NCBI GenBank assembly: GCA_016276965.1 | Contig: JADNRU010000010.1 | Coordinates: 1 to 32,682, forward strand | Direction of reading: 5' to 3' | Source: Nitrosopumilales archaeon | GTDB taxonomy: Archaea; Thermoproteota; Nitrososphaeria; Nitrososphaerales; Nitrosopumilaceae | DNA: 32,682 bases | Part shown: piece after piece, positions 3,910 to 31,607 of the stretch | How positions within the stretch are numbered: the stretch's first letter is position 1 | How the letters are laid out: every line of letters begins with the position of its first letter | The notes under the pieces: generated by a model | Databases searched by the model: none | Told to the model about the DNA's origin: nothing | Seen by the model: the letters and a program-made list of their open reading frames with translations, nothing else | Program-made: the position numbers and the translations under genes

Positions 3910-4581
3910 ATGAATGTAAAGGAATTGTTTGTAATTAATTGTAAAAATTATGATGAAACAAGTGGAACAAAAATTATAAAATTAGTAAATACGGCAAAGC
4001 AGATTTCAAAAAAATTTGGAGTTAAAATAGCCATTGCCCCTCCATCACATCTATTATCTCAGGTTGCTGGCCAGTCTTTAGCTATTTTTGCTCAACATTT
4101 AGACAATTCTAAAATTGGAAGTACGACAGGGTTTATGGTTCCCGAACTTGTTAAAAAATCCAAAGTAAATGGATCATTAATAAATCACAGTGAGCATAGA
4201 ATTTCAAGTAAAAATATTTCTCAATTGGTTTTAAAGCTAAGAAAACTCAAAATGATATCAATAGTTTGTGTTAAAAACGTATCAGAGGCAGAAAAATACG
4301 CAAAACTAAATCCAACTTATATTGCAATTGAACCTCCAGAATTAATTGGTTCTGGAAAGGCTGTATCAAAAGAAAAACCAGAATTAATTACCAAAGCTGT
4401 CAAAGCAGTCAGAAAGGCAAAAAATAACACGAAACTTTTGTGTGGAGCTGGAATTGTTTCTGGTGAAGATGTAGCAAAAGCTATTGAGCTTGGTTCCCAA
4501 GGGATCTTAGTAGCTAGTGGAATTGTAAAGGCAAAAAATTGGAAAAAAATTATAGAAGAATTTGCCAAGGCAATGCTTTAA
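3910..4581 (+). CDS. tpiA: Triosephosphate isomerase (archaeal type)
   Basis: Interconverts glyceraldehyde 3-phosphate and dihydroxyacetone phosphate in the cytosol. At 223 residues it is the short archaeal form (bacterial and eukaryotic enzymes are about 250). Catalytic residues are visible: N10 and K12 in INCKNY, H93 in NHSEHR and E141 in AIEPPELIGSG. The phosphate-gripping loop CGAGIVSGED lies at 178-187. The start is ATG at 3910, with an AT-rich TATA-like stretch at about 3862-3874. Pyruvate phosphate dikinase follows closely on the same strand, so the pair probably serves gluconeogenesis from fixed carbon. Confidence 0.95.
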   Translation: MNVKELFVINCKNYDETSGTKIIKLVNTAKQISKKFGVKIAIAPPSHLLSQVAGQSLAIFAQHLDNSKIGSTTGFMVPELVKKSKVNGSLINHSEHRISSKNISQLVLKLRKLKMISIVCVKNVSEAEKYAKLNPTYIAIEPPELIGSGKAVSKEKPELITKAVKAVRKAKNNTKLLCGAGIVSGEDVAKAIELGSQGILVASGIVKAKNWKKIIEEFAKAML

Positions 4582-28313: not shown

Positions 28314-28724
28314 TCAAAAAAGCCGTTGATGTTCAGCCAACATACATCTATTGAAAACAACCGTGATTCCTTCTTTTCTAGCCAATTCTTCAGCTTCAGT
28401 GTTATGAATTCCTTCTTGTAACCAAATCACTTTAGGTTTCTTTTTAATAGCATCTTTAACAAATGGTAATACTTGATCTGATGGCCTAAAAACATCAACT
28501 ATGTCAATTGATTCATCAACATCATTAATGCTAGGATAACATTTTTTGTTCAAAATTTCATCGGCACTTGGATTAATTGGAATAATATTATATCCATTTT
28601 CTGCCAAATATTTTGGAACAAAGTGAGCTGCCTTTTCTTGATTTTTTGATAATCCAATTACTGCAACATTTTTCAAAGAATAGATTTCTTTTATTTCTTC
28701 ATCAGATAGAGAATCTTTTTCCAT
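28314..28724 (-). CDS. CoA-binding domain protein (YccU-like)
   Basis: A single-domain protein of 136 residues with the Rossmann-like CoA-binding fold also found in succinyl-CoA synthetase alpha. VAVIGLSKNQEKAAHFVPKYL (about 20-40) is the nucleotide-binding loop. IVDVFRPSDQVLPFVKDAI and VIWLQEGIHN are typical of the stand-alone group. The enzyme role of these proteins is unknown; they bind CoA or acyl-CoA in the cytosol. There is no ATP-grasp partner, so a ligase activity is not expected from this chain alone. The start is ATG at 28724, with a TATA-like GATTATTA on the minus strand about 28 nt upstream. Confidence 0.85.
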   Translation of the reverse strand: MEKDSLSDEEIKEIYSLKNVAVIGLSKNQEKAAHFVPKYLAENGYNIIPINPSADEILNKKCYPSINDVDESIDIVDVFRPSDQVLPFVKDAIKKKPKVIWLQEGIHNTEAEELARKEGITVVFNRCMLAEHQRLF

Positions 28725-28776
28725 AAATCCAATAGTTATTTTTTGGTTAATAATCTATTAGGAATTTTTATGAAAT

Positions 28777-28869
28777 TTCTAATTTATGGGGAAATCCTGC
28801 ACGCCCAAAAGGAAGGGAATGTCACCCAACTACTCTCAGCGTGTGGATTTCCCACTAGTAAATTTAGAA
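28777..28869. repeat. Imperfect long inverted repeat, candidate structured RNA or miniature element
   Basis: The left arm (28777-28804) and right arm (28839-28869) pair almost throughout. TTCTAA/TTTAGAA with TTTA/TAAA forms the outer part, a perfect 9-bp GGGAAATCC/GGATTTCCC (28789-28797 with 28845-28853) the middle, and CACGC/GCGTG (28800-28804 with 28839-28843) the inner stem. The loop is 34 nt. By hand count about half the bases in 28787-28853 are G or C, far above the AT-rich surroundings. It lies in the 276-nt gap between the CoA-binding protein and biotin ligase. The rest of that gap holds promoter-like AT sequence and the T7/A7 palindrome. Confidence 0.6.
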
Positions 28870-28897
28870 CTAAATTGAGTTATGCATGTGTTTGTAA

Positions 28898-28916
28898 TTT
28901 TTTTGTTACAAAAAAA
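28898..28916. terminator. T7/A7 palindrome, possible terminator or promoter element
   Basis: TTTTTTTGT-T-ACAAAAAAA is a perfect 9-bp inverted repeat around one base, just after the larger inverted repeat. On either strand it would give a hairpin-adjacent U-run, so it could end a transcript of the element, but simple AT sequence can also look like this. Confidence 0.25.
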
Positions 28917-28966
28917 CATAGAACATTTTGAATAAAATTCAGCATCCAATATAGCTAGAAACGAAC

Positions 28967-28976
28967 TTTTTATAAT
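28967..28976 (+). promoter_or_regulatory. TATA box of the biotin ligase gene
   Basis: TTTTTATAAT is centred about 29 nt before the TTG at 29001, supporting that start codon and a leaderless mRNA. Confidence 0.5.
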
Positions 28977-29000
28977 CAAGATTCAAAATTACCTTGTATT

Positions 29001-29996
29001 TTGATATACAATTCCTATGACAATGTGGGTTTAGTTCGAGTATTATCTTTTTTAAAATCTCATAGTTCCGAATATCTTTCTGGTCAGGACTTAAGTGATG
29101 TATTAAAGATAAGTAGAGTAGCAGTATGGAAACATATCAACCGGATTCGTTCATTAGGATACAAAATTGAATCAAAACAAAAACTAGGATACAAACTAGT
29201 AAAAAATACCGAACTCTTGTTACCTTGGGAAATAATAGATGGTATAAAAACACGAAAAATAGGAAGGCGTTCTTACTATTTTGATTCAATAGATTCTACT
29301 CAGGCTTTTGCAAAAACATTAACAACCAATCCAAAAGAAAATGGTGCAATAATTATTGCACAAAAACAAACAAGTGGAAAGGGTAGGATGAAAAGAAAAT
29401 GGATTTCACCCCCTGGCGGGATTTGGTTTTCTATTGTTTTGAAACCTGAAATTGACGTTTCATTAATCACGTTATTTCCTATTGCAGCCTCCTTAGCTTT
29501 GGCAATTTCAATAGAAAAAACCTTGAAGAAAAAACCGGAATTAAAATGGCCAAATGATATTACTTTAAGAGGAAAAAAAGCAGCTGGAATCTTAATTGAT
29601 TTATCAATGGAATCAAACAGTATTGAAAATCTCATTCTTGGTGTTGGTATAAATTTTAAAATTAATCCCAGAAATATAGAAAAATCAATTAAAAACACGG
29701 GAAATTATTATGGAGTAGCAACTTTAGTTAAGAAAAATGAAAATTCTAATCCAATAAAATTAGTTCAATCCTTTCTTTTTGAATTGGAAAAAATGATGGA
29801 TTCTCTAGAACAAAGGAAGATTCGAGAAATTATTAAAAATTGGACAAAAAAATCATTCACTATAGGAAAGTATGTAAAAGTTTTAACTTCTGATGGAATT
29901 GTTCAAGGAAAGGCATTAAGAATTGATAATGATGGAGCTTTAGTAATATCTCAAAATAAAAAAACCACGCGTGTACTAGTTGGCGATGTAACCTGA
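29001..29996 (+). CDS. birA: Biotin-[acetyl/propionyl-CoA carboxylase] ligase with HTH domain
   Basis: Activates biotin with ATP and attaches it to carboxylase carrier domains. In thaumarchaea the acceptor should be the acetyl-CoA/propionyl-CoA carboxylase that feeds methylmalonyl-CoA to the mutase found earlier in this window. An N-terminal winged helix (about 10-65, SDVLKISRVAVWKHINRI) precedes the catalytic domain, with the biotin-binding GKGRMKRKW (127-134) and KWPNDI (181-186). GRGR is the usual form of the first motif, so GRMKRK is a variant. The C-terminal SH3-like domain is present. The start is TTG at 29001, supported by the TATA spacing. The HTH suggests it may also regulate genes, as in BirA. 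Confidence 0.9.
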   Translation: MIYNSYDNVGLVRVLSFLKSHSSEYLSGQDLSDVLKISRVAVWKHINRIRSLGYKIESKQKLGYKLVKNTELLLPWEIIDGIKTRKIGRRSYYFDSIDSTQAFAKTLTTNPKENGAIIIAQKQTSGKGRMKRKWISPPGGIWFSIVLKPEIDVSLITLFPIAASLALAISIEKTLKKKPELKWPNDITLRGKKAAGILIDLSMESNSIENLILGVGINFKINPRNIEKSIKNTGNYYGVATLVKKNENSNPIKLVQSFLFELEKMMDSLEQRKIREIIKNWTKKSFTIGKYVKVLTSDGIVQGKALRIDNDGALVISQNKKTTRVLVGDVT

Positions 29997-31204: not shown

Positions 31205-31261
31205 GCCCTAACTGAAAATATTTTGACTTTGTAATAAGGATATTGAAAAAGAGATTACGTG

Positions 31262-31399
31262 TTAATTATGTAGATGTATTTGTGAATCACTGGATTTTCC
31301 ACATTTAGGACAATGTAATGTTACATAATTATGACAAATACTACATTGTTGGGCTGGTTCCATTTCTGTACCACATAATCTACAACTCTCTAATCTCAT
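31262..31399 (-). CDS. 45-residue triple-CxxC zinc microprotein
   Basis: A short frame from ATG 31399 to TAA 31262. The product begins MRLESCRLCGTEMEPAQQCS and continues with CHNYVTLHCPKCGK. Three knuckles are present: C6-C9, C19-C22 and C30-C33, enough for one full zinc ribbon plus a pair. It ends in an HLHN tail. A TATA-like box (TTTAAAAC on the minus strand) lies 27 nt before the ATG, which supports expression. It is 57 nt upstream of the Dps-like gene on the same strand. Function unknown; it may be a nucleic-acid or partner-binding ribbon. Confidence 0.65.
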   Translation of the reverse strand: MRLESCRLCGTEMEPAQQCSICHNYVTLHCPKCGKSSDSQIHLHN

Positions 31400-31422
31400 A
31401 AAAAACAATAATACAATTCGAG

Positions 31423-31430
31423 TTTTAAAT
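31423..31430 (-). promoter_or_regulatory. TATA-like box of the 45-residue zinc protein
   Basis: ATTTAAAAC on the minus strand is centred about 27 nt before the ATG at 31399, the leaderless spacing seen elsewhere in the window. Confidence 0.4.
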
Positions 31431-31607
31431 CAACAGAAAATTAGACTGCGCTAATTAGCATCACCTAACTTTTTACGAGTAAAAATTTCATTTCATTCTC
31501 ATTTTTTAGAATAAGAATGTAAATTAGCTGAACCTACACCTAATTAACCTGCGGACAATGTGTGAAATCCATAATAAGCAAATTCACTAAATAATAGTAG
31601 TAATAGT

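Follow-up and report, generated by a model that had tools for sequence, protein, structure and literature searches.

A narrowly distributed family of hairpins, candidate small RNA genes, in ammonia-oxidising-type archaea

A long inverted repeat lies between two divergent genes in a stretch of 32,682 nt (hereafter the window) from contig JADNRU010000010.1 of a Nitrosopumilales archaeon, an 85% complete MAG. The question raised by this locus is which of two things it is, since the original prediction, made from the sequence, allowed either an undescribed small RNA or a miniature element. The features on which the answer depends are as follows:

28788-28853, minus strand: hairpin, proposed to form the 5' end of a small RNA (lowest-energy 93-mers; nine homologous copies under covariance models R1/R2)
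28789-28797, no strand assigned: left outer arm, GGGAAATCC; outer-stem pairs change on both sides across copies with pairing kept
28845-28853, no strand assigned: right outer arm, GGATTTCCC; the same two-sided changes, pairing kept
28800-28809, plus strand: left side of the inner core, CACGCCCAAA as read on plus; CAC.CCCA unchanged across the nine copies and three genera
28833-28843, plus strand: right side of the inner core, CTCTCAGCGTG as read on plus; CTCAG.G invariant in nine copies
28815-28827, no strand assigned: apical hairpin GGGAATGTCACCC, a 3-bp stem and 7-nt loop
28879-28910, minus strand: promoter/operator-like module TGTAACAAAAAAATTACAAACACATGCATAAC, ending 25 nt before the hairpin; related modules in the same genus only
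28314-28724, minus strand: CoA-binding-domain gene (PF13380), the downstream neighbor on the minus strand, outside the element
29001-29996, plus strand: biotin-protein-ligase gene (birA; BPL_LplA_LipB and HTH_11), the divergent neighbor

The hairpin at 28777-28869 is real. Its arms pair as had been described, with a 9-bp stem between GGGAAATCC (28789-28797) and GGATTTCCC (28845-28853) and a 5-bp stem between CACGC (28800-28804) and GCGTG (28839-28843). Its fold energies, -31.4 kcal/mol on the plus strand (z -4.4) and -34.6 kcal/mol on the minus strand (z -4.1), were far below those of dinucleotide-preserving shuffles, none of which (0/200) reached them on either strand. When the window was scanned as 93-mers at 15-nt steps on both strands, the two lowest energies among the 4346 values were at this hairpin, both on the minus strand. 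Two details of the original prediction needed correction. The G+C content of 28777-28869 is 43% rather than about half (33% for the window), reaching 52% in the narrower span 28790-28852, and the gap of 276 nt that holds the hairpin (28725-29000) is not the largest between genes, as 31205-31607 spans 403 nt by the ORF reading. This larger gap lies upstream of a TFB-like gene and contains an imperfect palindrome at 31437-31472. A 62-aa frame (28743-28931) was rejected as coding because hairpin lengths across copies (80, 76, 76, and 75 nt in four aligned copies) do not differ by multiples of three. Based on the ORF reading and the copy lengths, the element is thus positioned between genes and non-protein-coding, as archaeal intergenic small RNAs are.

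BLASTN identified one other, divergent copy in the window's genome (76% identity over 82 nt) and, in three further genomes of the same genus, one copy each. A covariance model (R1, from alignment A1) searched against 250 genomes of the family found nine copies, all in non-coding positions and all with E 1e-6 or better, in six genomes. Four of these are of the window's genus: the window's genome, G000 (two copies, that in the window and C6), G001 (two), G002 (one), and G003 (one). The remaining copies are in a different genus (G085, one) and a third genus (G257, two). A second model (R2) detected no copies beyond the nine in 400 genomes of the order, and in pattern scans there were no hairpin copies in viral contigs and chance-level matches only in phage and plasmid collections. 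There was no Rfam match to the window at the gathering score, and for eight copies searched at E up to 5 nothing over the hairpin was above the cut-off; a known RNA family or tRNA was rejected accordingly. Literature searches found no description of this element. Given the few copy-bearing genomes and the lack of matches in the order, the viral contigs, and Rfam, the distribution is narrow and patchy, and the hairpin is one of a small undescribed family of about 75 nt that is scattered in a few ammonia-oxidising-type archaea. Weaker matches within the family (L044-L048, E 0.01-0.1) lacked the core and were rejected. A match in an Obscuribacterales contig (L056:1499-1555) has the form-A core pattern, described below, with an apical helix between the core halves; it was treated as chance, based on our own estimate of about two chance matches and on an outer stem that does not fit.

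All nine copies have an inner core in common, the two halves of which read CACRCCCA and CTCAGYG, and fall into two forms that differ in their apex. In form A (L042, L043, L049, L050, and L051) the apex is a helix of 7-9 bp that varies in sequence with pairing kept, closed by loops of UUCG, GUAA, UUUA, or UCUU. In form B (the window copy, L038, L039, and L040) it is the apical hairpin GGGAATGTCACCC, identical in four of four copies and unrelated to the form-A helix that replaces it. In the window copy the inner helix is form-A-like, and the apex and flank are form B. The outer stems vary between copies and keep their pairing. The counts rest on few sequences: five compensatory outer-stem pairs in one alignment, three when form B is read on minus, and, in the form-A apical helix, four of nine pairs that change on both sides. 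In that helix 88.6% of cells are paired, versus 38-54% when the alignment is slid, and 47 of 500 shuffles reach the same number of two-sided pairs.

The copies are accompanied by promoter-like modules at constant spacing. In form A, a TATA-like block, TACGYRTTTGTTAAATA, is situated about 20 nt before the plus-strand hairpin, and most copies need no gap in its alignment. At 0-1 mismatch in six genomes the block was found only at form-A copies; at 3 mismatches its counts equaled those of the reversed-pattern control, and a wider regulon under this promoter was rejected. An inverted repeat, GTTCW....WGAAC, a possible operator, occurs about 25-40 nt before the block in L049, L050, and L051.

Form B, read on the minus strand, has ATTACAAACA, 6 nt, and TAAC, followed after 23-25 nt by the hairpin, at three of three independent loci. 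With up to 2 mismatches allowed, a closely related 32-nt module, TGTTTGGAAAAAATTACAAACAATTTCTTAAC, has 12 occurrences in the window's genus (four genomes), besides two weaker-looking cases; the reversed-pattern control, with three hits, gave zero in all four. Outside the genus it was absent from 16 of 17 genomes, the other (G043) having one match and one control match. Modules of this type precede small genes, whose start codons follow at 22-25 nt, the distance expected of archaeal genes that are leaderless, and also three other hairpins, at 24-26 nt. The window block at 28879-28910 diverges from the genus module that it matches, and its TATA part is non-canonical. Under a matrix trained without form B it scored 16.0 bits, with the third-best position in the window at 4.1; one position, inside a gene and taken as chance, outscored it at 18.4 bits. 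(Another matrix included form B and is not independent.) A promoter match at 3916-3947, inside a triose-phosphate-isomerase-like gene, was taken as chance. Upstream of the tRNA genes of the window's genome, TTTAA-type boxes are found at about 26-32 nt, so the distances from module to hairpin fit those of transcription starts. An initial assignment of the form-B block as a 3' tail or terminator was revised, as its relatives are upstream of genes on the other strand. Because the block read in reverse resembles the genus operator-promoter, the most plausible reading of the window hairpin is as the hairpin that begins a minus-strand RNA.

Based on these patterns, each copy is most likely a small RNA gene with its own predicted promoter, and we favor, with moderate confidence, the assignment of the window hairpin to a small family, hitherto undescribed, of genes for hairpin RNAs, with a minus-strand start near 28853. 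Supporting the small RNA half of the original prediction are the lack of an Rfam match, the non-coding nature of the element, compensatory stems at unrelated loci, and the promoter-like modules at start distance. RNA polymerase would begin near 28853, about 25 nt after the operator-promoter-like module at 28879-28910, and the resulting short RNA would open with a stable hairpin in which both the 7-nt apical loop (UGACAUU) and the inner core are fixed. That the form-B loop and the core do not vary suggests that they are recognized, either by a protein or through base pairing; base pairing via its loop or its core is the probable mode of action of the RNA. We infer transcription and its strand, together with any regulator, pairing partner, or effect on a gene. 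Form B has no obvious U-rich terminator after the hairpin, the stem in the window being followed by CATAAATTAG on the minus strand and ACTAGTAAAT on the plus strand; neither is the adjoining U-run of an intrinsic terminator, which the hairpin thus does not resemble. As to strand, the minus-strand fold is the better one for all four form-B hairpins and the preference is mixed for form A. Wobble counts favor minus in G002 (two A.C pairs on plus become G.U) and plus, by one pair, in G001/G003; as this evidence is mixed, the strand assignment comes mainly from the flanking modules.

Among the alternatives, a non-autonomous mobile DNA element or its relic, in which the hairpin would be the element or its end, the transposase or recombinase would come from elsewhere, and the promoter would be incidental, is unlikely, yet it fits several observations. 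Like miniature inverted-repeat elements and hairpin-ended IS200-IS605 derivatives, the copies are short, self-complementary, patchy, and mostly non-syntenic. The copy in G001/G003 fills about 120 nt between two convergent genes that is absent between the same genes in G002, where the gene ends overlap, and at the copy sites of G000 and G002 relatives carry a different gene. However, copy number is very low and the copies are divergent (two in the window's genome, one or two elsewhere) rather than many and near-identical; the many dispersed copies with target duplications that the original prediction named as the mark of a mobile element were not found. As it had noted, there is no clear target-site duplication, the same being true of the occupied site compared with the empty one in G002 (one site, AT-rich flanks), where no terminal repeat was seen beyond the hairpin. 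In addition, the stems diverge with pairing kept, the conserved modules outside the hairpin hold their spacing, and viral contigs, phages, and plasmids gave nothing above chance. The original prediction is upheld in part: patchy, non-syntenic copies that are present or absent between close relatives speak for a miniature element, the single other copy in the genome and the lack of a clear duplication speak against it, and this half is weakened but keeps some probability.

Beside thioredoxin, G002 lacks the form-A copy that G001 has; the form-A copy of G000 is in the same neighborhood with extra genes between. At the window locus an empty-site comparison is not clean, since neither G002 nor G003 has birA next to the CoA-binding gene. 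At the G001/G003 site no outgroup sets the order of gain and loss, as the methyltransferase gene did not turn up next to its partner in genomes beyond the genus. The unit may have moved, though not necessarily by way of the hairpin. Two loci (L058 and L059; G003:C145 and G002:C8) have a gene for a large secreted-type protein by the CoA-binding gene, either between it and birA or beside it, which is missing in the window. Adjoining the G002 copy, at the end of a convergent gene, is a 20-bp palindrome, AATCATACTCTAGTATGATT, perfect save for one central mismatch pair (L040/L009, near 1619-1638).

Under the preferred small RNA assignment, the apparent reading of forms A and B from opposite strands is odd for one RNA family, unless orientation is irrelevant or the two pair. 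As form A is apparently read on plus and form B apparently on minus, their RNAs would be complementary, which would make form-A RNAs natural candidate partners. For the two copies of the window's genome the predicted A+B heteroduplex has an energy of -95.9 kcal/mol, compared to -67.4 kcal/mol for two separate hairpins, a stability that follows partly from common descent and is alone no evidence of function. Duplex energies gave own-genome partners no clear advantage, as co-change of the arms within a genome would have. The predicted RNAs resemble paired antisense RNAs in being complementary over most of their length; unlike these, A and B are encoded at separate loci. We consider it rather improbable that the two forms arose from one hairpin through an inversion or a promoter swap and now make a sense/antisense pair acting in trans, under different switches, with one silencing the other.

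It is likewise improbable that the window copy is read on the plus strand like form A, with 28879-28910 as its 3' tail or terminator. The form-A covariance model does match the window copy on plus at 57 bits, the inner core and CTCTCAG match form A, and the block contains the T-rich TTTGTAATTTTTTT. However, the plus strand of the window has no TATA-like box at the form-A position, two form-B copies begin at the stop codon of the preceding gene, the relatives of the block precede genes read the other way, and form B folds better on minus.

A site acting as DNA, with the inverted repeat binding a protein or forming a cruciform and not needing transcription, is very unlikely. Self-complementarity would make orientation irrelevant and explain forms A and B on opposite strands; however, the apical helix differs wholly between forms with pairing kept, the promoter-like modules are at fixed spacing, and the changed helices, the UUCG and GUAA loops, and the wobble pairs fit RNA better. 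Least likely of all is a riboswitch-like 5' leader of the CoA-binding-domain gene at 28724. Its orientation and distance (about 60 nt, minus strand) fit in the window, but other form-B copies are between convergent genes with no same-strand gene immediately downstream, other copies adjoin other genes, the CoA-binding gene is without the hairpin in 20 family-level relatives, and in G002/G003 another gene is upstream of it.

Compared with described RNAs, and judged from sequence, the hairpins are best classed as a candidate family, new and unnamed, of the archaeal intergenic small RNA type. Among the latter are sRNA154 and sRNA162 of Methanosarcina mazei, which are intergenic and trans-encoded (reviewed in PMC5867862; PMC3432209). 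The likeness lies in the intergenic position, the predicted own promoter, and a stem-loop expected to base-pair; the present copies, for which no sequence relation to these RNAs is shown, differ in being dispersed, in two oppositely oriented forms, and known from sequence alone. Archaeal H/ACA guide RNAs are likewise hairpins of 65-75 nt with an internal loop, but here there is no consistent ACA/ANA box after the stem (the 3' flanks of the nine copies differ: ACUAAUA, ACUGAUU, ACUAUAG, UUUAAUU, UCUAAAU ...), no kink-turn was seen, the hairpin is not conserved across the order, and Rfam searches of the window and copies gave no H/ACA match. No RUGAUGA box of C/D guide RNAs was found in the hairpin on either strand.

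As far as our literature searches go, little has been charted of the regulatory RNAs in Nitrososphaerota (Thaumarchaeota). Our assignment, if correct, would add a defined small RNA gene family whose start sites are predicted, and a promoter module, specific to the genus, that is found at small-protein genes as well. Pairing of forms A and B, if it occurs, would provide a case of two hairpin RNAs that are complementary and encoded at separate loci.

The palindromic operator-promoter (TGTTTGG..ATTACAAACAATTTCTTAA) is genus-specific, precedes small-protein genes, and looks like the mark of an undescribed regulon. Its sites (L178-L189) include G000:C31:9007, C24:4268, and C13:3935; G001:C34:9284; G003:C166:1939; and, in G002, C8:131383, C9:10921, and C9:11103. 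Several of the small proteins have an LPxNAxxWAxLF motif (46 aa and similar) or a VxxILxDVAExVLxWNLG motif, and those tested had no Pfam match. The three further hairpins that follow the module, L170/L179 (G000:C1:40844), L172/L185 (G000:C1:43557), and L168/L177 (G002:C8:131635), are of the type GAACGAG...CTCGTTC, 60-67 nt in length, and are followed by T-rich tracts; they probably form a further small RNA family within this regulon.
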